Source: a virus
IMG/VR virus record: IMGVR_UViG_3300033182_000318
Coordinates: 1 to 56,842 of that record
Strand: one strand, 5' to 3'
Length of the DNA stretch: 56,842 nucleotides
Numbering within the stretch: position 1 is the first letter of the stretch; each line of letters opens with the position of its first letter. Below, one piece after another: positions 11,972 to 41,193 of the stretch. The notes beneath the pieces were generated by a model, which was not told the DNA's origin, did not search any database, and saw only the letters and a program-made list of their open reading frames with translations. A program made the translations under genes and the position numbers.

Positions 11972-12562
11972 TCAAGATAAGGATTGTTCTAAAATATACT
12001 TTCCTAATGGTGGATAAACACAGTTTCTTAATATCTGTCTTTTATCTTTTAATTTGGTATTGGCAATATAAATTTTATGATAGTTTTCTAAATCTGAAAT
12101 TTTATTAGACCATCTAATTTTGACTTCAGGAAAATCTTGTGGTTGTAATTCAAAGTTAGACCAAAATAAATGTCTTGATAATTTAGTAGCTTCTATTAGT
12201 GGTTGATAATAAGGAACAACATTTTCTACTAACCATTTTCCTTTAAAGTGATGTTTGAGAAATATTATTTCTTGATATAAAGTCATATCAGGATATACAG
12301 GTTCAGCACCTTTTTTTAATCCAACCATTTGTCTAATTTTACTATGAGTAGGACATGGTGGACTTGACCATATAAAATCGTATTCATCAAAATGTTTTAA
12401 TAAATAAGCGTGTGCATCTGCAACTATAACTCTATCTTGTGGATAAAAACTTTTATATACTTTGGCTATATCTTCTTTATATTCTACAGCAGTAATATCG
12501 TGTTCATTTGACCATAACTTTCTATTACCACCAATTCCAGAATATAGATTTAATATTTTCAT
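11972..12562 (-). CDS. DNA (cytosine-5) methyltransferase, short form (196 aa)
   Basis: C5-cytosine methyltransferase fold: motif I for S-adenosylmethionine binding is LNLYSGIGGNRK at the N-terminus, an acidic D-x-F/W turn follows (DYDF-like EYDFIW), and the catalytic loop is SSPPCPTHSKIR, where the Cys after Pro-Pro is the nucleophile. At under 200 residues it is shorter than typical bacterial enzymes and probably has a minimal target-recognition region, as in several phage enzymes. The start overlaps the SET-domain gene by four bases (ATGA). Likely role: modifying phage DNA against host restriction. The target sequence cannot be read from the protein. Confidence 0.8.
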   Translation of the reverse strand: MKILNLYSGIGGNRKLWSNEHDITAVEYKEDIAKVYKSFYPQDRVIVADAHAYLLKHFDEYDFIWSSPPCPTHSKIRQMVGLKKGAEPVYPDMTLYQEIIFLKHHFKGKWLVENVVPYYQPLIEATKLSRHLFWSNFELQPQDFPEVKIRWSNKISDLENYHKIYIANTKLKDKRQILRNCVYPPLGKYILEQSLS

Positions 12563-12852
12563 ACTTTGTATAAAGTATATTTTAAAGTCAATTCTGATAG
12601 ACCTTTAATATCTTCTAAAGTATGTAAGTACCACCATCTACCAACTTTTACTATTTCACAATTTGGTTTGTCTGAATGATTAACAAAACCACCTAAAGGT
12701 GTTCTAACAATTTCTCCTGTTTCTAAATCTACAATATGTGATATGCCTAAAGTTTCTCCTTTAGGTATATCAGATAAAGTAAATAAACCTAGCCCTTCTA
12801 TCTTGCTAGGCATAATAGTTAAGTTATCAGGTAGTGGTTTATATTTTGTCAT
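12559..12852 (-). CDS. Small SET-domain protein (97 aa)
   Basis: Compact SET-domain protein. Visible motifs are GLGLFTLSDIPKGETLG at the N-terminus (the usual G-x-G-x-F/Y start of SET folds) and GGFVNHSDKPNCEI, corresponding to the N-H-x-x-x-P-N-C/A catalytic motif that binds S-adenosylmethionine in SET lysine methyltransferases. The C-terminal motif is weak (ELTLKYTLY in place of E-L-T-x-D-Y). It is sandwiched between a cytosine methyltransferase and a muralytic gene, overlapping the former by ATGA and the tiny membrane ORF upstream. A phage SET protein could methylate a virion or host protein; the substrate is unknown. Confidence 0.75.
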   Translation of the reverse strand: MTKYKPLPDNLTIMPSKIEGLGLFTLSDIPKGETLGISHIVDLETGEIVRTPLGGFVNHSDKPNCEIVKVGRWWYLHTLEDIKGLSELTLKYTLYKV

Positions 12853-26233: not shown

Positions 26234-26558
26234 GCTTTACCAAATCCATAGCGACATAGTCTATAATTACTGTTTGGTATTCACTAAATTCGAAATATTC
26301 TCCACCAGCAGTATGACCACCTACTTTAATTTTCCAATGATTTTCACCTTTATTATCGGTTACCATTTCTATATTTTCGATAACTACACCTTGTTTGAAG
26401 TTACCTTCCATAACCATTCCTACTTTTAAGTCTGAAGGTTTCATAGCTTTTTGATTACCACCTGGGATAGTTCTTCCATATCCCAGATAGTATTTAACAT
26501 TTGTTTTTCTTGACATTTTTCCCCTTTCTATCAAGACAAATTCTACTTCGTCTGTCAT
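26220..26558 (-). CDS. Unknown protein upstream of primase (112 or 98 aa)
   Basis: Unrecognised beta-rich protein: PSDLKVGMVMEGNFKQGVVI and HWKIKVGGHTAGGEYFEF suggest a small barrel. Two starts are plausible. The upstream ATG (26558) overlaps the stop of the zinc-finger gene as ATGA, which favours coupling; the internal ATG at 26516 has a stronger ribosome binding site (AAAGGGG). It overlaps the primase gene by 14 bases and so belongs to the replication operon. Confidence 0.6.
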   Translation of the reverse strand: MTDEVEFVLIERGKMSRKTNVKYYLGYGRTIPGGNQKAMKPSDLKVGMVMEGNFKQGVVIENIEMVTDNKGENHWKIKVGGHTAGGEYFEFSEYQTVIIDYVAMDLVKRDGL

Positions 26559-26731
26559 TTGATTAATTCACGTCCACGAACACGTGGAAACTTTTTTTCA
26601 TGATGTTGAAAGCAAAATTTTTGTTTATTATATTGGCTAAGAACTTGTTCACAATCTTTATTTTCACAAACTCTGCCTTTAGCAAAAGTTTTACTTTTTC
26701 GAGCTTTAGGTTTTCTAGTTCCTTCTATCAT
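26555..26731 (-). CDS. Small zinc-finger protein (58 aa)
   Basis: Basic peptide starting MIEGTRKPKARKSKTFAKG, with RVCENKDCEQVL and KFCFQHHEKK giving C-x4-C and C-x2-HH, a likely zinc-binding knuckle. ATGA overlaps link it to both neighbours (26555-26558 and 26728-26731). Probably a DNA- or RNA-binding accessory of the replication operon; function not known. Confidence 0.55.
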   Translation of the reverse strand: MIEGTRKPKARKSKTFAKGRVCENKDCEQVLSQYNKQKFCFQHHEKKFPRVRGRELIK

Positions 26732-28751: not shown

Positions 28752-28940
28752 ATGGACGATTTAGAGAAAGAAATTCAAAGACAAGCTAAAGAGCTAGTAG
28801 CTAGTTTAGAACACCTTTTGTCATTAATAGGTGAATATTCAAATCCTAGAATGTATCGTTGTTCTGTTTGTAAAAGAAAGTTATCCAATCACAAAGAAAA
28901 TATCTTTTGTAAAGACAGAGAGCATTTTACAAAAGGTTGA
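28752..28940 (+). CDS. Small zinc-ribbon-like protein (62 aa)
   Basis: Helical N-terminus (DDLEKEIQRQAKELVASLEH) and a C-terminal Y-R-C-S-V-C-K-R-K with a further Cys in IFCKDREH, a C-x2-C...C-x4-H zinc-binding pattern. It starts five bases after the tRNA-like RNA without a clear ribosome binding site, so it may be translated poorly or start elsewhere. No function assigned. Confidence 0.45.
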   Translation: MDDLEKEIQRQAKELVASLEHLLSLIGEYSNPRMYRCSVCKRKLSNHKENIFCKDREHFTKG

Positions 28941-29557: not shown

Positions 29558-29701
29558 TTATTCTTCTTCTGTTTTAGCTATTGCTAGTTTTTTACCAAAA
29601 CGTTTATTGTACTGACGACAACCTACATTTCCGCAAACTCTATAGTTATCTCTAATTTTAAATTGGCTTTTACAACTCTTGCAGTTTTCTATAAATTTCA
29701 T
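29558..29701 (-). CDS. Small zinc-finger protein (47 aa)
   Basis: Reads MKFIENCKSCKSQFKIRDNY then RVCGNVGCRQYNKRFGKK and an acidic end. C-x2-C and C-x4-C pairs make a classic zinc ribbon of the kind found in small phage proteins. A ribosome binding site (AAGGAGAT) lies somewhat far upstream. Function unknown; a translation or transcription accessory is possible. Confidence 0.55.
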   Translation of the reverse strand: MKFIENCKSCKSQFKIRDNYRVCGNVGCRQYNKRFGKKLAIAKTEEE

Positions 29702-29885
29702 GCTCTCAGTTTATCTCCTTCTAAAAATTTTCTGTATATAAAAAATGGGTGACCAACGGATAAGTGGAAAAAGGCAAATTTTTGGGGGGGTGGGGTGCAA
29801 AGTTTTTCATGTTAAGTACTCATCACCAATCTTGTGTATAAATCGCTGCTGCATGGCTACTGAGTTGTTAAACGAGAGCTAAATG

Positions 29886-30137
29886 TCAATCCACTAGCTC
29901 TAGCAACCAGCTCCCATTGATTTTTATGCTCTCAAAATCTGTTTTAATCATGTGCTGCTGTCTGGATAAGTATGCTTTAGTTCTCTTATCTGTATTATGG
30001 CTACTGGTTACATTGGTTGGGCTATTTATTGAGAACGTTGCATTGTTATTTACAAAGTTCCTAGAAACTAAATCCTTTAAATCTACTTGTTCTCCACTCA
30101 CTAACCCTAGCATGAAGGCTTTTTCTATATCAATCAT
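29886..30137 (-). CDS. Unknown protein downstream of terminase small subunit (83 aa)
   Basis: MIDIEKAFMLGLVSGEQVDL starts a helical protein with a Ser/Asn/Thr-rich middle (NNNATFSINSPTNVTSS). It follows the small terminase gene by 12 bases and is likely co-transcribed. No family recognised; the low-complexity centre lowers confidence in function but not in translation. Confidence 0.5.
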   Translation of the reverse strand: MIDIEKAFMLGLVSGEQVDLKDLVSRNFVNNNATFSINSPTNVTSSHNTDKRTKAYLSRQQHMIKTDFESIKINGSWLLELVD

Positions 30138-30149
30138 GAGAACATTATA

Positions 30150-30584
30150 CTAAGAAACTGCATCACCATCAATTTCCTGTCTTATAGCTTGTAAGTACTC
30201 CTCTTTGCTCCCATCAACAATCATAACTCCCTGTGTGATTTGTTGTTTTATTTCGGTCTGTTTCGGGGCTTCGAGTCCATATATCTTACTTATTCTATCC
30301 ATAACCGATAAAGCTCTGTCAATAGCTCCTAATTCTCCTTGTTGAACTCTTTCCCATAAGATTAATAAGATTTGATTTAGTCGCTCATATTCTACTTGTC
30401 GGAGTTCATCTGTAGGCTCGGCGATTATGGTTTTCATACTACGTTGAACACTCTTATAGGCTCCACTACTATCAGCATATCCTAATTGCTTTGCAATGAC
30501 CTCATAACTAGCTCCAGCTTTGCGTAATTCTAATGCTTGTCTGTCTTTTTCTCTTACTTCGATTGATTTAGTATTTACTTTCAT
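30150..30584 (-). CDS. terS: Terminase small subunit (144 aa)
   Basis: DNA-recognition subunit of the packaging motor. The N-terminal part (DRQALELRKAGASYEVIAKQ then LGYADSSGAYKSVQR) is a helix-turn-helix, and RQVEYERLNQILLILWERVQ, LGAIDRALSVMDRISKIYGL are the central oligomerisation helices typical of small terminases from actinophages. The C-terminus is Gln/Glu-rich. The large subunit lies 6.9 kb away at 37497-38882 on the same strand; these genes normally adjoin, so the intervening rightward block looks inserted. Confidence 0.8.
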   Translation of the reverse strand: MKVNTKSIEVREKDRQALELRKAGASYEVIAKQLGYADSSGAYKSVQRSMKTIIAEPTDELRQVEYERLNQILLILWERVQQGELGAIDRALSVMDRISKIYGLEAPKQTEIKQQITQGVMIVDGSKEEYLQAIRQEIDGDAVS

Positions 30585-31708
30585 GTACTCTGTTTATCTT
30601 ACTCTCAAACTGTCATCTATGCAAAGCCAAACCCCATGAATTTTGAATATCGCATAGAGGTCTTGAATTATGTCTTGTTTCGCCATAACTTGTAGTACCT
30701 AAATACTATTTTTAATCTTAAATAGCTACTATATGAGGACTGGAAATAACTATTTATGTTGTGTTTATTCTTTTTATTTACCTATTATATTAAATGATTT
30801 AATGACACCGAAGCCGAATTTTTTGAAAATTTCTTGCATTTGAGGTCAAAACCCTACCTTTGAGCTTGTGAAAAATTTCACAAAGTACAACTATTAGGCA
30901 TGTACTCAACTAATTTTTGCTCAAAAATGGCTATTTTTTTCATGAATATTTATACATGAAAAATGTATAAATATACATAAATTTTTAGTCCTCTTGTCTA
31001 AAATCCCATTAAATAAGGCTTTAAAATAGGCTTATTTTATGGGCTTTTTTCCAGCTTATTTATTGAAAAAATCTTAAAAATAGGCTACCTATTTGCGAGG
31101 ACTATAGTATACTTATTATAAGGTATTTTATATCTTAAACCATCTTGGATAAAGAGGACAATAGGTGGTAGTTAGCCTACAGTCGTTGTCGGAGGACAAA
31201 ATGGAACTGGCTTTCAGCCTAAGTGCAAAATCTCTCCAAGAGGACACACAGAGCTTGTGTTTTCAAGCTGACTAGAGGACAATAATATACTCTTTTGACC
31301 TTACTGTCAGATGAGGACACAAGTTAAGCCTTCGGTGTATGAGGGCTTAGTCTGTTGTGTTGGTGGTTGATATTGGAGCAACCATACGACTTGCGGAGGA
31401 CGTCTCAGTATAGCGTGATACACCATACCCAAGACCAAAAGTCTTGAGGTCAGTAATCCACTTCAGTTCAAGAAGTAAAAACTACCAAGCTAGGTAGAGG
31501 ACTAACGTTTTATGTGTTAGAAATTGTCTGTGCGTTGGTGTGTAGGGAGAGGACACTTTCCCGTGTAGCCAAATAGTTTGTACAAAAGTACCATAATCAT
31601 AAAAAAGAGGTCTTTTCTTAATAACCAAGTTCCTACATAATAGAGGACGCCTAGTGGATAATCGTACAATACGCATTACAATGTCCTCATAGAAATGGGG
31701 GTAATATA
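30585..31708 (+). ncRNA. Non-coding leader with dense hairpins and GAGNNC spacers
   Basis: About 1.1 kb without a credible gene. It contains about 16 GAGNNC hexamers on the plus strand separated by stem-loops. Examples: ATATTTATACAT with ATGTATAAATAT (30946-30974, 12 bp); CCCAT+AAATAAG with CTTATTT+ATGGG (31005-31043); AAATAGG-CTA-CCTATTT (31078-31094); AGCTTG with CAAGCT; TAAGCC with GGCTTA; GGTTG with CAACC; GTAC-AAAA-GTAC. The regular order hairpin, spacer hexamer, hairpin suggests a structured RNA continuing into the coding part downstream. Transcription direction (rightward) is inferred from the strand of the hexamers and the downstream genes. Confidence 0.6.
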
Positions 31709-31941
31709 TGGCTAGAATTGGCTCATGCAGAAGATGTGGAGGACACAATTCCTCAACTTGCTCCTGCAATAGATTAATGATTAATACTAATTTTCCAATT
31801 CAAATGGGATTGGATAAAAAAAGAGGTCAAGCTCAAAAAATACTAATCAAAAATCCTGAAAAAATACAACAAATAATAGACATATTAACTAATTAATTAA
31901 AACTAACTAACTAACTAATGAGGACATTACAATGCGTATTG
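31667..31941. repeat. 24-nt inverted repeat pair flanking a small ORF
   Basis: Arms at 31667-31690 and 31918-31941 are complementary at 22 of 24 positions. Each arm has an ACA in the middle, so as RNA the arms would pair as 11 and 10 bp around an ACA/ACA internal loop. The outer ends contain GTCCTC and GAGGAC. The arms enclose 227 bases with the 62-codon zinc protein. Confidence 0.8.
31709..31896 (+). CDS. Small Cys-rich protein (62 aa)
   Basis: MARIGSCRRCGGHNSSTCSC carries C-x2-C and C-x-C, a likely zinc site, followed by a basic helical region (KKRGQAQKILIKNPEKIQQI). A purine-rich GGGGG lies upstream of the ATG. It sits inside the inverted repeat 31667-31941 and holds one GAGGAC hexamer read as Gly-Gly-His and one GAGGTC. 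Function unknown. Confidence 0.45.
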
Positions 31942-31983
31942 AACATACACTTCCTAATGTACTCCGAGAAAGAGAGTATATAT

Positions 31984-32265
31984 ATGGATAAACAACAATT
32001 AGCCGAATTAGTTGAGTATTTTGGTGAGGTCAAATTCACTAGAAAACAACTTAATCTAATTCGAGAAATCTTAAATATGAACACAATGTCATTAGTCAAT
32101 GAGTACAGCAACAAAAACTCTAAGAGTTTCAAAGTTGCATTAGATAAATTGGCTAGTGTTAATTATGATATAGCAAACGTTATGACAGAGGTCAGCCCAT
32201 CATTTAACCGAGATAAATGGTTTGATGAGGGCAACAAAACCTCAAATGCTCATATGATTTGGTAA
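31984..32265 (+). CDS. Unknown helical protein (93 aa)
   Basis: With the ATG at 31984 the product starts MDKQQLAELVEYFGEVKFTR and is helical, with LDKLASVNYDIANVMTEVSP and an aromatic C-terminal end (FNRDKWFDEGNK). An upstream in-frame ATG at 31960 overlaps a reverse GTACTC hexamer and is less likely. Hexamers fall in-frame as EV, EG and as Tyr-Ser-like readings. No family recognised. Confidence 0.55.
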   Translation: MDKQQLAELVEYFGEVKFTRKQLNLIREILNMNTMSLVNEYSNKNSKSFKVALDKLASVNYDIANVMTEVSPSFNRDKWFDEGNKTSNAHMIW

Positions 32266-32280
32266 TATTAAGGAGTACAT

Positions 32281-32400
32281 ATGAGTAAATTTCAACCAAA
32301 GTTCGTTTGTTATTGGTGTAAAACACAATTAGCAGAGGGCGAACAACTTACAGAAATAAAAGGTAACTTTTACTGTAAAAATTGCGATAATGTTAGGTGA
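32281..32400 (+). CDS. Mini zinc-ribbon protein (39 aa)
   Basis: Reads MSKFQPKFVCYWCKTQLAEG, later GNFYCKNCDNVR: two C-x2-C knuckles, a complete zinc ribbon. The ribosome binding site AAGGAG overlaps a GAGTAC hexamer just before the ATG, so that hexamer may double as part of the initiation region. It overlaps the next frame. Confidence 0.6.
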   Translation: MSKFQPKFVCYWCKTQLAEGEQLTEIKGNFYCKNCDNVR

Positions 32401-32548
32401 GGTCGATACACGTATAAAATGTATGTGTAATCAATTCATGGCTAAAGTTTCCGTAATGGCTAACGTAAAGAGTACAACACTTGTACAATTCTTTTGTTTC
32501 CATTGTGGTGCGAGTACTGTAGCTAAAGAACAAGCAAAAAGAGTATAA
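32390..32548 (+). CDS. Mini zinc-binding protein (52 aa)
   Basis: Starts within the end of the previous gene and reads MLGEVDTRIKCMCNQFMAKV, later QFFCFHCGASTV: C-x-C and C-x2-C pairs. Two GAGTAC hexamers are read in-frame as Lys-Ser-Thr and Ala-Ser-Thr, one GAGGTC as Glu-Val. A paralogue-like relation to the neighbouring zinc ribbons is likely. Function unknown. Confidence 0.5.
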   Translation: MLGEVDTRIKCMCNQFMAKVSVMANVKSTTLVQFFCFHCGASTVAKEQAKRV

Positions 32549-32640
32549 AACAAGATTTCGGAGTACATTATGAAGTGTATGGTATGAATTATAACAATCA
32601 GTAATCTACGATAGGTCTGTGTCCTCGTGGAAGGATAAAA

Positions 32641-33546
32641 ATGAATAAAGATAGAGTTATCTTATCAGAGGACGTAAGTTCTCTAATCCCTAAAGGCTCT
32701 TTAGACAATTATGTTGAGAGAGTATTAGCAGGAGGTCAAACAGACCTACAAATACTAGCATACGCACACAAAGTAATGCACAATGTCCTCATTACTGGGG
32801 ATACAGGTGTTGGTAAAACTCATAGTGTTTCAGCTCATGCTGAGAGTACAAGTTTACCATTTGTTTCCATAGCTTGTAATGGTGCTACTAACCCAGACCA
32901 AATGTTTGGGCAATTTAAACCATCAGAGGACGGAAATGGCTTTGAGTGGGTAGACGGAATTGTTACAACTTTAGTAAGAAATGGTGGTGTCCTCTTACTA
33001 GATGAGGTTAATTTTATGAAACCTGACATTTCGGCTGCCCTCCACCCTTTGCTAGATAGTCGCAGAACACTAACTCTAGTTGAAAATGGTGGCGAGGTCA
33101 TCAAAGCTCATAAGGAATTTCAAGTAGTTGCTTGTATAAATCCTAATTATGAGGGCACTAGACCATTAAACGAAGCATTTAAAAATCGCTTTGGTATTCA
33201 TTTAGAATACACCTACGAGGGCAACAATGAGGATATTCTCGTTGAGAATAGACCTACTTTGCTTGAACTCGCAGACAAGCTAAGAGTTGCTCGTGAAAAT
33301 GGTACGATTGCTACACCTGTGAGTACAAACTCACTTATGGAATTTGGCGAATTTGTTGAGGACTTAGGTCTGGAATTTGCTATATCCAATTTCGTTAATA
33401 AATTCGATATTGATGAAAGAGCAGCAATCAAAGAGTACTTTGATGTATTAATACCACAAATCGCTAACGAATTTGGCGAGGACGTTCCTGACATGTTTGT
33501 CAATGATGTACCTCAATCAAATGACTTAGATGATACAGATAACTAA
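32641..33546 (+). CDS. CobS/MoxR-like AAA+ ATPase (301 aa)
   Basis: AAA+ ATPase of the CobS/gpvN/MoxR group. Walker A is LITGDTGVGKTHS; Walker B is GGVLLLDEVNFM; sensor and finger region is CINPNYEGTRPLNEAFKNRF. The QMFGQFKPSEDGNGFEWVDG segment is the usual pore/insert motif of CobS-like proteins. Together with the downstream VWA protein it forms a MoxR-VWA type chaperone pair; marine phages often carry a cobS-like gene of unknown role, and cobalamin metal insertion is not implied. Ribosome binding site GGAAGGA precedes the ATG. Glu-Asp pairs are repeatedly coded GAG-GAC, unlike the GAA/GAT-rich usage elsewhere. Confidence 0.9.
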   Translation: MNKDRVILSEDVSSLIPKGSLDNYVERVLAGGQTDLQILAYAHKVMHNVLITGDTGVGKTHSVSAHAESTSLPFVSIACNGATNPDQMFGQFKPSEDGNGFEWVDGIVTTLVRNGGVLLLDEVNFMKPDISAALHPLLDSRRTLTLVENGGEVIKAHKEFQVVACINPNYEGTRPLNEAFKNRFGIHLEYTYEGNNEDILVENRPTLLELADKLRVARENGTIATPVSTNSLMEFGEFVEDLGLEFAISNFVNKFDIDERAAIKEYFDVLIPQIANEFGEDVPDMFVNDVPQSNDLDDTDN

Positions 33547-33561
33547 GAGAGGACTAACTTA

Positions 33562-35529
33562 ATGGATTATGAAAAAATGTCCATTGAGGAATATAACGAG
33601 TTGATAGAGAGAATGGTTGAGGACACCTCAGCCAACTCTCTTGATGAAATGTCTGCTGAGGACAAACAACGTAAATCTATGGTTGATATTATCGGTCAGA
33701 GTTTTGCGAGTACATTTACTAAGGTAAATCGTATTTTACTTGGCGACTATGAAACTCAAATATTTCTTGAGGACGGTAGACAAAAAATGGTTGATGCTCC
33801 TGCATGGACAGATGGCGAGGACGTATATTTGAATAAAAGATACGTTGCGAAATCTTTTGCTAATTTGGTAGAAAGTAACCAAATTAACTTTAAGAACATA
33901 GCAGAGGTCAAAGGTCTTAACTATCATGAGTTGGCTCATATTTTCTTTACACCAAGAATGAATAGCAAGATAGCGAAAGAGGTCAGAAAAATGGCTGATA
34001 ACTTTCCTGATTATTGGTATGCGTACAACGTGTTAGAGGACTTACGAGCAGAAATGTCTATGGTTATGATATTCCCAAAAATTGTTGATTATTTTTCAAT
34101 CGCAGTTTTTAACTATATCTTAAACCAAGAGGACGGTGATGTTGCAAATTCTTATATGTTGTTAAGTGGTAGATATTTTTTACCAATCGAAACACGTATG
34201 GAAATGAGGTCATTATTCGCACAAGAATATGGCGAAAAATTCACAAAGAATATGGAACAGATTGTCGAGGACTATGTTAAAAATATCACTTATACAAACA
34301 CCCGATATCAAGAGGGCTATGACTTAATCGAAAGATTTGTCATAGAAGTGTTAAAGCCTATGAGGACAAAATCTGGTAAGGCTTTACCGAAGTGCATAGG
34401 TGGTAGTCAACACGTACATGATAAAGATGCAGGAGCAGGTCGAGGTCATTGGGGAAAGAAAACCTTACAAGGTAGTCTTTCTAAAGGTACTACAAGAGTA
34501 CAAGACCAAAAACTTGTTAAACCTTATATAGAGGAATTAATTAATGAAGTTAAGGAAACTATAGAGGACATTAAATCTAACGAAGTTACTAACTTAGGAA
34601 CGAAAGCTGGACGAGGTCAAACTGATAACCAATCGGTTAAAGATGTAAAAGCTAGTTTAGAGGAAATTATCGAAATATACGAGTCCAATCCTACTTTCAA
34701 AAATGATGTTGAAATTACTAAAAAAGATATATCAGCAAAAATTGAGAAAGCAGTTGAGGACATTAACGTTGTCGGTATTACTGCTCAACCTATGCTTGTT
34801 GCACCTTCTCCGAGTACACTTAGTCTAAAATCTCAAATTGATAGATATTTTAGACAATTAAGAATTGACTTAGAGCAAGATTGGTTACGAGGTCGTAAGA
34901 CAGGTATCGTAGATATGAACAGATTAATGAGGACACAACATCTTCCTAGAGCAGATGTTTTCAAAAAATGGAAACCTAGCGAGGAGGACGCTGCTACTAG
35001 CGAGTGTGTTATATTGCTTGATATGTCAGGCAGTATGGACAGCGTTGCGAGGTCAGCTAGTGAAGTTGTGTGGATATTAAAACAATCGTTAGATAAAATC
35101 GGTGTGAGGACTACAGTATTAGGCTTTGCAAATCAATGTTATATTATTTACAAACCTAATCAAAAAGCAATTAGAGGACAAGTTCCTGTATATGCTACTG
35201 GTGGTGGAACTCAACCCGAGTACGCATTGAAACAAGCATTAAACGTTTTACGTACAAGTGATAGAAACAACAAATTTGTTGTTGCCCTCACTGATGGTGC
35301 TTGGACAGATAGCGAAAAAGAAATCGAATTAGTTAGAGAAATTACAAAAGAGGTCGATAGTTCAAATCTCTTATTCTATGGTGGATATTTCGACATGGAG
35401 AGGGCTAAGGACAAAGACAAATATGCTTTTGGAAATTTTACTAACATTAAGCAAATAAAGAAGTTAGAGGACACTTTAGATATTGTAAAATCTATCGTTT
35501 CCGATATAACTAATAAATATATATACTAA
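33562..35529 (+). CDS. CobT-like VWA-domain protein with HExxH motif (655 aa)
   Basis: Partner of the preceding AAA+ ATPase. The N-terminal half contains LNYHELAHIFFTPRM, an HExxH that is typical of zinc metallopeptidases and also seen in CobT-like proteins. The middle is charged and helical. The C-terminal 200 residues are a von Willebrand A domain with a complete MIDAS: VILLDMSGSMDSV (D-x-S-x-S), the conserved Thr in ATGGGTQPEYAL, and VVALTDGAWTD. CobS/CobT-type complexes use ATP to remodel a bound client held through the MIDAS metal. It follows the ATPase by 15 bases with GAGAGGA as ribosome binding site, which again contains a spacer hexamer. Confidence 0.9.
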   Translation: MDYEKMSIEEYNELIERMVEDTSANSLDEMSAEDKQRKSMVDIIGQSFASTFTKVNRILLGDYETQIFLEDGRQKMVDAPAWTDGEDVYLNKRYVAKSFANLVESNQINFKNIAEVKGLNYHELAHIFFTPRMNSKIAKEVRKMADNFPDYWYAYNVLEDLRAEMSMVMIFPKIVDYFSIAVFNYILNQEDGDVANSYMLLSGRYFLPIETRMEMRSLFAQEYGEKFTKNMEQIVEDYVKNITYTNTRYQEGYDLIERFVIEVLKPMRTKSGKALPKCIGGSQHVHDKDAGAGRGHWGKKTLQGSLSKGTTRVQDQKLVKPYIEELINEVKETIEDIKSNEVTNLGTKAGRGQTDNQSVKDVKASLEEIIEIYESNPTFKNDVEITKKDISAKIEKAVEDINVVGITAQPMLVAPSPSTLSLKSQIDRYFRQLRIDLEQDWLRGRKTGIVDMNRLMRTQHLPRADVFKKWKPSEEDAATSECVILLDMSGSMDSVARSASEVVWILKQSLDKIGVRTTVLGFANQCYIIYKPNQKAIRGQVPVYATGGGTQPEYALKQALNVLRTSDRNNKFVVALTDGAWTDSEKEIELVREITKEVDSSNLLFYGGYFDMERAKDKDKYAFGNFTNIKQIKKLEDTLDIVKSIVSDITNKYIY

Positions 35530-35601
35530 ATAAATCGAGGACATTAGACCTATCGTAGATTACTGATTATCAAAATTACTCTTTATTAATTAGGAGGACA
35601 T

Positions 35602-35769
35602 ATGACACTAATGCAAATGTTTTTCAAAGATTGTGATAATTGTGGGAGTACTACAATTTGGACAAAACTTGAACAACGCAGCGAAACTCAAACTCTAGTC
35701 GAGTGCGACCAATGTGAAAGGCAGGAAATCATGCCGACTACAGTACACGAGGACGTTTTAGATGGTTGA
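35602..35769 (+). CDS. Zinc-ribbon mini-protein (about 55 aa)
   Basis: A strong AGGAGGAC ribosome binding site (containing the GAGGAC hexamer) precedes ATG; the product has KDCDNCGSTTIW and VECDQCERQE, two C-x2-C knuckles. The final bases overlap the next gene (ATG at 35762). The start may be off by two bases because I placed it by eye. Likely another nucleic-acid or protein-binding zinc ribbon of the block. Confidence 0.5.
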   Translation: MTLMQMFFKDCDNCGSTTIWTKLEQRSETQTLVECDQCERQEIMPTTVHEDVLDG

Positions 35770-36148
35770 TGACATTAAAAATATTTTAATATCGTTAAAT
35801 CTAATTCGTACACAAAAGTTATCCTTAGATGACCAAGAGAGTACATTAAAAGCTAAGTTAATGCAATACCTTAAAAATAGTGATATGAAAAGTTTTTCAA
35901 TATCACATGAGGGCTTAAACATTAAATCTACTCTAGTCAAAAATGACAGAATAGAAATTGATGAATTAGGACTTATTGAGGACTTATCTACAGAACAATA
36001 TAATAAAATTATTAAAAAATCTATAGATAAAAAATTGCTTGAAATCGCCATTAAAAATGGGGATATATCAGAGGACATAGCTAAGAAATATCTCAAAGTC
36101 AAAACAGGTAAAGACTATATAAAACTTAATGTTGAGGAGGACAAGTAA
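35762..36148 (+). CDS. Unknown helical protein (128 aa)
   Basis: Charged helical protein (LIRTQKLSLDDQESTLKAKL, later IEIDELGLIEDLSTEQYNKI) resembling siphovirus Gp157-type accessory proteins in length and style, though I cannot confirm it. The start overlaps the previous small gene by eight bases. Within it a 12-bp stem-loop (35880-35906, GTGATAT and ATATCAC arms) and ATTAAAA-ATA-TTTTAAT are embedded in coding sequence between hexamers. Confidence 0.65.
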   Translation: MVDDIKNILISLNLIRTQKLSLDDQESTLKAKLMQYLKNSDMKSFSISHEGLNIKSTLVKNDRIEIDELGLIEDLSTEQYNKIIKKSIDKKLLEIAIKNGDISEDIAKKYLKVKTGKDYIKLNVEEDK

Positions 36149-36447
36149 TGATTAATCCAATACAAAAATCCCCCTCAGCATTGAGGACTTGGGTTGATAA
36201 AAACACAAGAGAAAAAGTCTATTTACCGATTGACTTAGCGAGGTCTTTAGATGTGGATATCAAGACAGTTCGTAGATGGTTGAGAACAAAGAAAATTTTG
36301 CCTAGTTATCATTTAACGCAGGGAAAAAATTCAATACCAATATGGACTGCTGAGGACATTATCTATGTACAAAATTGGTATGTAAACAAATCAAAAGGAA
36401 AACAACCTAAATATAGAGAGGAGGTCAGTACAGATGATAACATTTAG
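36148..36447 (+). CDS. MerR/excisionase-like HTH DNA-binding protein (99 aa)
   Basis: LPIDLARSLDVDIKTVRRWL is a winged helix-turn-helix of the MerR/excisionase type, followed by the wing-like ILPSYHLTQGKNSIPIW and TAEDIIYVQNWYV. The likely role is binding DNA as a regulator or architectural protein, and it is the only plausible local candidate for recognising the GAGNNC array if the array acts as DNA. Its ATG shares a base with the upstream stop (TAATG) and is preceded by GAGGAGGAC. Confidence 0.75.
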   Translation: MINPIQKSPSALRTWVDKNTREKVYLPIDLARSLDVDIKTVRRWLRTKKILPSYHLTQGKNSIPIWTAEDIIYVQNWYVNKSKGKQPKYREEVSTDDNI

Positions 36448-36637
36448 TAGTGGCTTACATTTAGCAATTATATTCGTAATGGCTTTAGCTATGCTTTATA
36501 TACTTTTCGAGGTCTATAACGTAGTTAGGCTTTATATTGCCGAATATAAATACAACAAAGAAAAACCAATAAACATTGACTTTAACAAGAGTACAGATGT
36601 TGATGAGTTTTTCAATAATACTTACAAAACATGGTAA
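36434..36637 (+). CDS. Small membrane protein (67 aa)
   Basis: One transmembrane helix near the N-terminus (LHLAIIFVMALAMLYILFEV) and a soluble charged tail (YKYNKEKPINIDFNKSTDVD). The ATG lies inside the end of the HTH gene with AGAGGAGG upstream as ribosome binding site. Function unknown. Confidence 0.6.
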   Translation: MITFSSGLHLAIIFVMALAMLYILFEVYNVVRLYIAEYKYNKEKPINIDFNKSTDVDEFFNNTYKTW

Positions 36638-36852
36638 AAAAACCAAGTCTAAACGAGGGCGATACCATAGAACACGCTTTAACTGTTGAAACTGTTATAG
36701 CTGGTCAAAAAATATGGATAAAGACAGGAGCTACCACTACTGTGAGGACAGGCGAAAGTCCGAGTGGTGCTAGTAAACGTTTAGCCAACTTTGTAAGCAG
36801 GAGGACTTCACAACAAGTGCAAGAAATCCGAAACGCAGGTAAATCAGAGTAA
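36631..36852 (+). CDS. Unknown small protein, last gene of the block (73 aa)
   Basis: Basic protein: EHALTVETVIAGQKIWIKTG suggests beta strands, followed by ASKRLANFVSRRTSQQVQEI, an Arg-rich helix that could bind nucleic acid. The start overlaps the preceding gene by seven bases. The last GAGTAC hexamer before the terminator lies just past its stop. Confidence 0.55.
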   Translation: MVKKPSLNEGDTIEHALTVETVIAGQKIWIKTGATTTVRTGESPSGASKRLANFVSRRTSQQVQEIRNAGKSE

Positions 36853-36882
36853 TTTTGAGTACATAATTCATACGTACCTTTT

Positions 36883-36930
36883 GGGGATAGTAGTTAAATT
36901 TTATTATTTAGCTACTATCCCCATTTTTTT
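36883..36930 (+). terminator. Strong rho-independent terminator
   Basis: GGGGATAGTAG-TTAAAT pairs with ATTTAG-CTACTATCCCC over 17 positions (one G-U) around a six-base loop, followed by a T-tract. It ends the rightward block and, with the A-tract upstream, could also stop transcripts coming leftward from the terminase gene. Confidence 0.9.
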
Positions 36931-37496
36931 TTGTGCTCTTTTTTTTGAGATAGAACCCCCCCAGCAGCCCACAAAAAAAAGAGTGCATTTTTCAGTTTTC
37001 ATGACACACCCAGCAGAGAAATATCAGAATATTGAGAACAATTTTTGTTAAATTCCCACGGAGGCTAGGCTTCCAAAGAGAACAGATTTGCTTCGCTGCC
37101 ATTAAATTATGTTCTCTTTTCTTCTAATTCTCGCCATCTGGCTTTTGCAAGAAACTGTGCTCGGGAAGGAAGGAGTGAATTTTTGAGATGCTCTCATTTT
37201 TTTTTCACCCAAGGGGGAATGTCAGGAAAAAATAAAGAGCTCACCAAACACCAACCCCACCTCCATCTTCAAAAAAAAAAAGTACTCAGAACCCATCTCA
37301 GCATCATTTTTGCTCTCTTTTTTTAGTGCGAACCGTTTGCAAGAAGAATTGTCCTCTTTTTTTTACGCAACATAATAAATGTCCTCGTTTTTTGAAAATA
37401 CACCTTTAAGGGCACTTTAAAAATGCACTCGGAACTTTCAAAACTTCCACAAATGAAAAATGATATTTTTGACTAACTATATAAGAGTGCGAAAGT
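36931..37496. other. Non-coding, homopolymer-rich spacer with paired GAGNNC motifs
   Basis: No gene seen. Long A and T runs alternate with GAGNNC or its complement (36934, 36981, 37034, 37077, 37110, 37158, 37191, 37230, 37282, 37312, 37351, 37381, 37425, 37495), now mostly on the minus strand, the sense strand of terminase read-through. Several pair: AAAGAGAACA with TGTTCTCTTT (about 37072-37116), and GCTCTTTTTTTT with AAAAAAAAGAG (about 36936-36983). It may act as a bidirectional termination zone and a continuation of the hairpin array. Confidence 0.5.
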
Positions 37497-38882
37497 TTAA
37501 AGACTCCAAGGACTTTTCTCACGAACAAAATCAATTAATGGTGCTAACGCTTCAAACTTAAATCCACGTTCTGCCCATGCTAAAGCCATAGCAACCATAC
37601 TGTCAGGTGTGTGACCATTTCCAAAGATATCATCAAAACCAGCATATTTATGGTCTTGATACATACTTTCTATCATTGGACTTTGAATTAATCCACGCTC
37701 ACACGCAGAAATATATTCAGAAAATAAATTCTTTTTATTACTTCCAGTAATTACATAAGGAATTGAATCAACTGTTATATAATCTTCTACTACATTACCA
37801 ATACCAGTAGCATCATGAACTAATTTACCAGGATATTTAGCTAATCTTTGTTCAGCTTTTGCTACCATATCTCCCCAAGGTTCACGGTGTGTTCTTTCAA
37901 AAGCAACTACACGCCAAGGCTCAACATCAGTTCTTAATGTAACTATAACTGTACAATCTCTTTGTTTCGCCCAGTCCACTCCAGTTATGTAAGTGCCCTC
38001 CCCCATATATTTTTCGAACTGGTATTCTACACCGACTTCTCCAGAAACCTTATCGTGTGTTTGTAATGAAAACATTTCATCAACTTTCTCTGCTTCTATA
38101 GCTCTACCTTCAAATGAAGGCTCTTGCATATCAAACTCTATATCCCACATAGCTTGTGAAACTTCACTTCTTTTTCTTTCTACTTCAGAAGGTTCTAACC
38201 AACCATGTGGTTTAACTGTTTCTCTCCAACACCATTCATATACTGGATAACCTTTTTCTTTTGCTCGTCTAAGCATTTCTGTCATAGTTTTATCTGGATA
38301 TTGGTGTGTAGAAGAAGCAACTGTTTGTGTTTGAATACCATTCTTAGCCATTGGCTGTCCCTGTGCTGCTTCTAAGATATCTAGCTCCATTTCATCTATC
38401 TCATCTAGTCTTAATCTTTGTGGGTGCTGACCACGAACAGACCTTTGTGAAGCTGTTAAAGCTCTAATCCAAGCTCCTGAAGTTAAATTAGTTGAATATT
38501 TGTTTGGTGCATCTACTAAAAGACCTGTAGGTGCGTTTTTATGTGCCCATGCTTCTAAAGATATTTCATAAACACGAAGTGATTGTGCTGCTGAACCTCC
38601 TAGTACTGTTACCTGAGCTCCTAAAGTTACTGCTTCCGTCAAGGCTAATAATCCTAAAGTATTAGTTTTTCCTCCCATACCACGACTAGCTTTCCAAATA
38701 GAAAAAGGATGCCTACCGAAGTAAGCATCAGCGAATGCCTCAAATGGAGATTGGTGGTGTGGACAAATAGATGTTCTTGGTATGGATATTCCCCATAATA
38801 AACGAACTACTTCCCATAATTCATCATCATCTTGGGGTGGTCTGCCTAGAATTAGCTGTTTTTTTGTTTCTGTTTGTTCCAT
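37497..38882 (-). CDS. terL: Terminase large subunit (461 aa)
   Basis: Packaging ATPase-nuclease. ATPase part: WKASRGMGGKTNTLG (Walker A-like), LRLDEIDEMELD (Walker B), and TQTVASSTHQYPDKT (coupling motif). Nuclease part: YITGVDWAKQRDCTVIV (first acidic residue), LVHDATGIGNVVEDYI, and a C-terminal Asp (GHTPDSMVAM). Length is usual. The ATG is only about five bases downstream of a predicted transcription start (see 38894-38899), with no ribosome binding site, so the mRNA may be leaderless, a common feature in Actinobacteria. Confidence 0.9.
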   Translation of the reverse strand: MEQTETKKQLILGRPPQDDDELWEVVRLLWGISIPRTSICPHHQSPFEAFADAYFGRHPFSIWKASRGMGGKTNTLGLLALTEAVTLGAQVTVLGGSAAQSLRVYEISLEAWAHKNAPTGLLVDAPNKYSTNLTSGAWIRALTASQRSVRGQHPQRLRLDEIDEMELDILEAAQGQPMAKNGIQTQTVASSTHQYPDKTMTEMLRRAKEKGYPVYEWCWRETVKPHGWLEPSEVERKRSEVSQAMWDIEFDMQEPSFEGRAIEAEKVDEMFSLQTHDKVSGEVGVEYQFEKYMGEGTYITGVDWAKQRDCTVIVTLRTDVEPWRVVAFERTHREPWGDMVAKAEQRLAKYPGKLVHDATGIGNVVEDYITVDSIPYVITGSNKKNLFSEYISACERGLIQSPMIESMYQDHKYAGFDDIFGNGHTPDSMVAMALAWAERGFKFEALAPLIDFVREKSPWSL

Positions 38883-39771: not shown

Positions 39772-41193
39772 TTAGTCGTCTATATGTTTAGGCTTTGAAC
39801 CAGGTGCTAATGGGTCGTACATTTCTCCATCTTTACCTTCTTTTTTATCATATACAACACCACGTCTTTTGTGTGCATAGTTGTATAAATAAGTAGTTGG
39901 CATATCTGGTTTCACTCTTTCTTTAACTAAATTATGTCCTGGATTTCCTCCATAGATTAATAAGTGCTCTGGTTGTAAAGCATCCAAGGCTATCTTTGTA
40001 CAATTAGCTAATACTTGAATAGATTTCTCTCTTGTATCACGTTTTGGATTACCTTCTTCGGCATCTATATTCTGTAGGCAAATAGCTAAGATAGGTGGAT
40101 TTTTAGGTATTCCTAACATAGCTATATCCATTGATTGCTCATCTGCGAATTGAACACGTGGTATAACTTTTATTCCAACTTCTTGAAACATACGTCCTAA
40201 CCATTGTGCGTTATATACTGCTTGTAAATGGAAGGCTTTTGGTTCTGTAAAATAAAAAGAAAAGTCTGGAGCAATAGCTGTTTTAATTCCAGCACTAACT
40301 ACTTTCTGTATCATATAACCAGTATGAGTAATAAAGTTAAAGAACTTATGGTCATGTGTAAAGAAAGACATAATAGCTCTTTCATATGGCATACCTATTG
40401 GTCTTGCTAAACCATAATTCCATAACCAATGTGTTATACCATCATCTGGTGTTGCATCTCTACCTCCCCATGTATCTAATGGTTGTGGTAGTTTGTCTAA
40501 CAACATATCCCTTCTTAATTCTGGTATATCCCATCTATTGTTTGTAGGAAGAAAAAGTTTTTCATCATCTATCATTAAAACACTTTGGTCTATTTTATTA
40601 TCTAATTCGACATTATCGTCAAAGCCATCTTCTTCGTCATCATCTTCTGTTATACCGATATTAATATCTGTTAGTCCGTCTAATGTATCAGGTATTTCAT
40701 ATTCCCCTTGCTGTGGGTTAGATAAACCATCAATGTATGTATCTAAATTAGTATTACTACTTGTTAAACTATCAAATGTTTGAGTTAAACTTCTATCAAC
40801 AGCATCAATTATCATACTTACATCTTGTGTTGTATAACCAGTACCAACTGGGTTTTTAACATTTTTCAATAAATTAGCTAATTGACTTGTATCATATGAA
40901 GCTAAATCGTTTGTTCTGTTATCTGCTAAAACAATTTTAGAAGCCGATTCATCATCAACATCAACATAAGCTACTTGTATAGTTTCCCATCCTAAACTTT
41001 TTGCAGCCATCCATGTGTGATTACCAGCTAATATAGCGTTATCTTTTTTATTAACAACGATAGGTTTGTATTGTTTGTTTTCATTTAATGATTCAGCAAT
41101 AGCTTCAATGCTACCTACTCTAGGATTTCCTTTATATGCTTTTAAATCCGTAACTTTTACATCTGCTATTTCAATTACTCTGTTGTTTTCCAT
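39772..41193 (-). CDS. ParB-like domain fused to DUF4417-like domain (473 aa)
   Basis: N-terminal ParB/sulfiredoxin-like domain (LKAYKGNPRVGSIEAIAESL, KPIVVNKKDNAILAGNHTWM, NRTNDLASYD), found in chromosome-partition and phage nuclease-like proteins. After an acidic linker (TEDDDEEDGFDDNVELDNKI) the C-terminal 250 residues read TAIAPDFSFYFTEPKAFHLQ, IKVIPRVQFADEQSMDIAML and LLIYGGNPGHNLV, the pattern of DUF4417. Similar fusions occur in actinophages. Possible roles are nuclease, kinase-like CTP switch or host-takeover. It overlaps the WhiB gene by 23 bases. Confidence 0.75.
   Translation of the reverse strand: MENNRVIEIADVKVTDLKAYKGNPRVGSIEAIAESLNENKQYKPIVVNKKDNAILAGNHTWMAAKSLGWETIQVAYVDVDDESASKIVLADNRTNDLASYDTSQLANLLKNVKNPVGTGYTTQDVSMIIDAVDRSLTQTFDSLTSSNTNLDTYIDGLSNPQQGEYEIPDTLDGLTDINIGITEDDDEEDGFDDNVELDNKIDQSVLMIDDEKLFLPTNNRWDIPELRRDMLLDKLPQPLDTWGGRDATPDDGITHWLWNYGLARPIGMPYERAIMSFFTHDHKFFNFITHTGYMIQKVVSAGIKTAIAPDFSFYFTEPKAFHLQAVYNAQWLGRMFQEVGIKVIPRVQFADEQSMDIAMLGIPKNPPILAICLQNIDAEEGNPKRDTREKSIQVLANCTKIALDALQPEHLLIYGGNPGHNLVKERVKPDMPTTYLYNYAHKRRGVVYDKKEGKDGEMYDPLAPGSKPKHIDD

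Follow-up and report, generated by a model that had tools for sequence, protein, structure and literature searches.

The stoperators of Cluster A mycobacteriophages such as L5 and Bxb1 are 13-bp sites that occur in 24–34 copies per genome, genome-wide, mostly in intergenic DNA and in one orientation. From one related phage to another the letters of the site vary, and the recognition helix of the repressor shows changes that correlate with them (PMC3029335). BldC of Streptomyces, a small protein with a MerR-like winged helix, binds asymmetric repeats without forming symmetric dimers, and RacA, a protein of related fold with binding sites near the Bacillus subtilis origin, recognises GC-rich DNA in the form of a symmetric dimer (both PMC5859096). 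Among phage RNAs, GOLLD and ROOL are large and structured and have no assigned function (PMC12286853). Here we describe a phage locus at which a dense array of short DNA sites and a large structured RNA overlap.

The window that we analysed comprises 56,842 nt, positions 1 to 56,842 of the IMG/VR record IMGVR_UViG_3300033182_000318. Relatives were found in IMG/VR as four contigs with a CobS-like protein about 97% identical to that of the window (L004–L007), a 57-kb record, G001, in which the protein is 77% identical (locus L027), and a 14.7-kb contig, L008, in which it is 59% identical. The comparison thus covers effectively three lineages (the window, G001 and L008), all metagenome contigs, with one letter switch among them. 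The nearest cultured relatives of the CobS–CobT genes are phages infecting actinobacteria, and no prophages were found in the GTDB genomes searched with the terminase.

Counting both strands, the hexamer GAGNNC forms a sharp block of 133 sites (102 plus, 31 minus) from 29702 to 37490, a span of 7.8 kb that takes in genes and non-coding DNA alike. The initial annotation had noticed this word between the hairpins of the 1.1-kb leader at 30585–31708, yet it is not peculiar to the leader and runs far into coding DNA. The sites are evenly spread, with a mean gap of 59 bp, a coefficient of variation (CV) of 0.31 and a largest gap of 114 bp, whereas randomly placed sites have a CV of 0.98 and, on average, a largest gap of 317 bp. 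A helical period near 10 bp was seen in G001 only. In a scan over 4-base gapped words the array pattern ranked first, unprompted; no equally regular array was found among the CobS or terminase relatives or the Gordonia, Brevibacterium and lake actinophages searched.

When the sites were aligned, a consensus of G[A or C]G[GT][AGT]C[AGT] emerged, in which positions 4, 5 and 7 are almost never C and beyond which the flanks are uninformative. In its GAG form, GAGKDCD (GAG[GT][AGT]C[AGT]), the refined site occurs 112 times in the array of the window and 3 times in the other 49 kb, where 25 would be expected; in G001 the counts are 102 inside and 8 outside. The looser GAGNNC is about five-fold enriched within the array of the window and avoided outside it. 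Against synonymous-codon shuffles, the array genes carry 67 sense copies where 26 are expected and the remaining genes 26 where 77 are expected, and the control words GGGNNC and GTGNNC were unaffected. The depletion affects both strands of the late genes. Outside the array of G001, GAGNNC is likewise depleted (18 versus 86 expected, z −10.7), with GCGNNC at 21 versus 22. The synonymous third positions that fall in motifs of the window are 81% conserved in G001, as against 62% elsewhere (p = 5e-4). Individual sites turn over: GAGGTC at 31607 is GTTGTC in L004, L005 and L027, which have a GAGTAC 21 bp upstream. Array sites of the GAG lineage often coincide with Shine–Dalgarno positions, as at the start codons at 32281, 33562, 35602 and 36148.

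L008 carries an array, written GCG, in the corresponding region, where it begins shortly upstream of the small Zn-ribbon gene and reaches as far as the terminase. There, GCGKDCD occurs 105 times in the array and never outside it; for GCGNNC outside the array the count is 2 versus 4.2 expected, a comparison of low power. Within genes, 15% of the L008 sites fall at the exact aligned position of a site in the window (null 1.6%) and 56% lie within 10 bp of one (null 31%). Coincidence so far above chance indicates that the arrays are homologous and that some 125 sites had their second letter replaced. Third codon positions in motifs of the window are correspondingly less conserved in L008, at 36% versus 54% elsewhere. 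This switch in a relative provides a built-in test of the co-evolution of a reader with its code. On balance we favour the view that the block is a regional address code, in which about 130 evenly placed copies of one short, asymmetric word, superimposed on genes, regulatory DNA and a structured RNA, would be read on double-stranded DNA by a protein covering the region, purged elsewhere and jointly rewritten when the specificity of the reader changes. GCGNNC, the word of L008, is itself low in the outside genes of the window (6 versus 19 expected; 1–29 kb and 37.5–56.8 kb).

Depletion that tracks the motif in use in both the window and G001, together with a site specificity that differs between relatives, might also be expected if the words were sites of a host or phage modification or restriction enzyme, the array being marked or protected and the other copies purged. 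Methylases of the Type III, BREX and Type IIG classes typically recognise asymmetric, degenerate words about this long. A restriction target, however, should be shunned everywhere and not kept about every 60 bp over 7.8 kb, and modification needs no even spacing. Moreover, a single methylase-like gene was noted in the window (11972–12562, minus strand), and no homologue of it was found in G001, which keeps the array; the phage's own methylase was rejected as the reader on this ground. We consider an enzyme of this kind unlikely. The methylase-like protein is a compact, C5-methylase-like product of 196 aa, too short for the usual target-recognition domain, and its gene adjoins that of a 97-aa protein with a SET-domain match (12559–12852, minus strand).

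The orientation of the sites bears on the molecule in which they are read. Over the rightward transcription unit, the core of the array (31097–36862) holds 89 plus sites and 10 minus sites. The left flank (29702–31096) is mixed, with 8 plus and 11 minus sites, the first of which lies directly against the start codon of a 47-aa Zn-ribbon gene (29558–29701, minus strand) in all three lineages; the right flank (36863–37490) is mostly minus and stops 7 bp short of the 3′ end of the putative terL. Minus sites occupy the gaps between plus sites, and none of 5,000 randomisations of the minus sites was as regular in any of the three lineages. In the cores of the window and G001 they lie a median of 45–48 bp from the nearest plus site, where 16–18 bp would be expected, and antisense gap-filling also occurs at every one of the three left flanks. 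Because antisense copies fill the sense gaps, which a strand-specific RNA signal would not predict, the word appears to be read on double-stranded DNA. Together, these results identify the array as a regularly spaced, strand-tolerant signal at the level of double-stranded DNA that is under selection, and the reader, we infer, is likely to be a protein.

The same gap-filling weighs against a motif that acts in RNA, bound by a protein or nuclease along the early transcript, folded RNA included. Such a reading would account for the bias towards sense sites in the rightward unit (89:10), including 13 of the 14 sites in 31097–31683, and for the somewhat greater structure of the coding core relative to other genes. 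It would not account for the depletion of the motif on both strands of the late genes, and the structural context of the motifs is inconsistent; we judge it quite unlikely. The initial annotation had treated the hexamer as a component of an RNA, a view that does not fit an array on both strands over 7.8 kb that persists, letter-switched, in L008, where no homologue of the RNA was detected. The idea that the motifs are RNA packaging signals displayed by hairpin loops was rejected, as they have no systematic structural context. The mean fold z of the coding-core mRNA (31900–36850, plus strand) is −1.26 per 100 nt, compared with −0.16 to −0.66 in other regions; in L008 it is −1.18, and in the window the extra folding is not phased with the motifs.

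The genes at its edges raise the further prospect that the array serves DNA packaging or segregation, much like a pac site or a centromere, with the small terminase or a partner as its reader. In all three lineages it includes a putative small terminase with a helix-turn-helix (HTH; 30150–30584, minus strand) and ends at a putative large terminase subunit (37497–38882, minus strand), a name given by eye in view of its sequence and place; for the terminases as a whole, the assignments are based on position, inspection of the sequences and weak matches. The 57-kb genomes of the window and G001 are collinear and circularly permuted relative to each other, which fits headful packaging. Nevertheless, the HTH of the small terminase is nearly identical in the window and L008 despite the differing motif, and the protein was rejected as the reader for that reason. 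Known pac sites are far smaller than a 7.8-kb carpet, and a packaging role seems improbable. Near the terminase, 39772–41193 (minus strand) encodes a ParB N-terminal domain fused to DUF4417.

To return to a protein bound along the array, the core encodes a MoxR/CobS-like AAA+ ATPase (32641–33546), a CobT-like VWA protein (33562–35529) and two candidate binders, all on the plus strand. One is a 99-aa protein with a predicted MerR-like winged helix (36148–36447). Foldseek placed the RacA–DNA complex, MerR and BldC on top for its model, which is of modest confidence (mean pLDDT 69), with probabilities of 0.99–1.00 and E values from 1.8e-3 to 7e-2, RacA also being matched weakly by sequence, below curated cut-offs. 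The recognition helix reads KTVRRW in the GAG phages and KTVKRW in the GCG phage. This R/K position is one charged position with a consistent change, and its correlation with the site letter rests on one switch; in an alignment made by eye it appears to adjoin the equivalent of BldC Arg30, which contacts a base (PMC5859096). The alternative candidate is a 52-aa Zn-ribbon protein (32390–32548), which is 81% identical between the window and G001 and 32% between the window and L008. The protein encoded at 36631–36852 is predicted to form a beta hairpin plus a helix, for which no PDB match was found. Tiny proteins with cysteine pairs, resembling Zn ribbons, are unusually numerous in and around the array (26555–26731, 28752–28940, 29558–29701, 31708–31896, 32281–32400, 32390–32548 and 35602–35769).

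We suggest that a monomeric protein, which would need no palindrome, occupies the sites on double-stranded DNA; asymmetric and about 7 bp long, the sites are of the size that one small domain reads. Most simply, the binder would be the phage's own RacA/BldC-like winged helix, an assignment that we put forward as a possibility, and in the L008 lineage the specificity of this protein would have shifted in step with its sites. Binding about every 60 bp could then spread a carpet of nucleoprotein over the early region, as we call it from the gene layout, and so mark it. By analogy with the stoperators of other actinophages, such a carpet might most readily block RNA polymerase, giving early-to-late or lysogenic silencing, although silencing as the purpose of the array is likewise conjectural; depletion of sites elsewhere would leave other genes free. 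The chief alternative for the same complex is a role in anchoring or compaction, like that of RacA, and the mixed orientation of the flanks suits an architectural protein better than a roadblock. As a whole, the picture of operator-like sites through which a monomeric, asymmetric binder would mark the early region, and probably silence it, much as an extreme stoperator system would, is our tentative best explanation.

Upstream of and within the core lies the leader at 30585–31708, which the initial annotation had described as non-coding, rich in strong hairpins and a candidate large structured RNA. No convincing open reading frame was found in the region, and reading of the sequence bore out all four hairpins singled out there: TTGTGAA/TTCACAA at 30866–30883, also present in G001 and L008; a 12-bp perfect stem at 30946–30957/30963–30974 with the loop GAAAA; a stem with 12 of 13 bp paired at 31005–31017/31031–31043, kept in relatives, with a similar inverted repeat in L008; and the 7-bp stem of AAATAGG-CTA-CCTATTT at 31078–31094, directly before the RNA and the first core site, GAGGAC at 31097. 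Relative to dinucleotide shuffles, 160-nt windows starting at 30820–30980 and at 31220 fold with z scores of −2.9 to −3.9. The hexamers, proposed to separate the hairpins, have no consistent position relative to them, which indicates two independent patterns overlaid on each other.

A large structured RNA was confirmed for the second half of the leader only, where about 540 nt on the plus strand (~31140–31680) are conserved in six genomes and nearly identical between the window and G001; apart from the named hairpins, the first half is mostly diverged among relatives. Fold prediction and alignment of relatives, two of the checks proposed for the candidate, both supported the RNA in this second half. 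RNAalifold on the six sequences (four distinct) yielded 157 pairs, long-range helices included, and 14 base pairs with double changes, compared with a mean of 6.7 in shuffled alignments, none of 500 of which reached 14; counted by cells, there were 18 with double changes versus 7.3 (0 of 500). In this consensus structure 97.3% of cells are paired, a figure that falls to 38–49% (maximum 48.6%) when the partner is slid by 1 to 3 columns, and the whole stretch folds as a single sequence with a z of −3.5. The fixed bases of motifs that lie in the RNA show no excess conservation between the window and G001 (40 of 46, versus 86% for the rest). As the initial annotation had supposed, the RNA does not resemble GOLLD or ROOL: no Rfam covariance model matched at threshold, the best sub-threshold match in the leader being a Streptococcus sRNA model at 28.6 bits where 48 are required. 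The suggested vicinity of tRNA-like genes was not borne out, as the window lacks any tRNA gene.

Among 17 loci, a covariance model of the 123-nt second domain of the RNA matched only the window and L027. At the syntenic place in L008 we detected neither an RNA homologue nor a folding excess; DNA searches for the RNA among phage records, and of plasmids with the L027 copy, returned nothing, and a pattern scan of IMG/VR returned only the same five contigs. We conclude that ~31140–31680 encodes a genuine, conserved and previously uncatalogued large structured RNA, which appears to be a new family. It occupies the 5′ end of the unit transcribed rightwards and may be either a separate RNA or the 5′ leader of an mRNA. 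A structured leader is also found in cultured phages. In the Gray group of Gordonia phages, a non-coding leader of about 1.1 kb occupies the syntenic place between a leftward helicase block and the rightward CobS–CobT operon; it folds with a z of −3.1 and has 22 double-change cells, where the shuffled maximum is 15. GMA6 has a gap of similar size there (z −2.1). These leaders, in Gray, GMA6 and kin (L011, 12878–14035; L115, 11938–12991; L123–L128), make the RNA part directly testable in culturable phages. In two Gordonia phage records a small open reading frame, which may be spurious, is annotated inside the leader.

The hairpins at 30866–31094 lie in a divergent intergenic region and recur in relatives, as they might if the leader were a cluster of promoters and terminators in which hairpins serve as terminators or operators. 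Promoter-like matches, however, number 8 versus 13.8 in shuffles and terminator-like sites 3 versus 1.6 expected, and the covariation, the 157 pairs and the long-range helices of 31140–31680 speak against such a cluster, which we hold to be very improbable. An origin of the hexamers in codon usage, Shine–Dalgarno sequences or chance, to which the GAG of Shine–Dalgarno sites and their overlap with some motifs might point, is already refuted by the synonymous-codon shuffles inside and outside the array, by the presence of the array in non-coding DNA and its CV of 0.31, and by the GCG of L008, which is not Shine–Dalgarno-like.

Kept against the constraints of the genetic code and of RNA structure and erased elsewhere, the array of this small phage points to strong selection for a region-wide nucleoprotein state, and an address code of this kind, if true, would be a new way to mark and control one part of a genome. 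We know of no precedent for its anatomy, an evenly spaced carpet of sites, and the literature on evenly spaced motif arrays in phages held nothing relevant among open-licence papers. The novelty lies in this anatomy; the RNA alone is a new family of a known kind, distinguished from GOLLD and ROOL by the lack of an Rfam model match, the lack of nearby tRNA genes and its place at the 5′ end of an operon. Like stoperators, the array belongs to a putative actinophage and consists of many copies of an asymmetric site that varies by a letter between relatives and whose orientation is biased with transcription, although this bias holds in the core (89:10 sense) and the left flank is mixed. Unlike stoperators, its sites are about 7 bp long, number about 130, run evenly through coding DNA in both orientations and are depleted elsewhere; confined to 7.8 kb and mostly within genes, they are neither mainly intergenic nor genome-wide. 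The candidate binder would share the MerR-like winged helix of RacA, its nearest structural match, and RacA is an architectural protein that acts in one chromosomal region, as the binder of the array may do. RacA sites, however, are few and widely spread in the genome and form neither an even carpet nor an array through coding sequence. With BldC the candidate would share a small winged helix acting on asymmetric repeats, yet the repeats that BldC binds are 9 bp long and adjoin one another at promoters, whereas the sites of the array stand about 60 bp apart over 7.8 kb.
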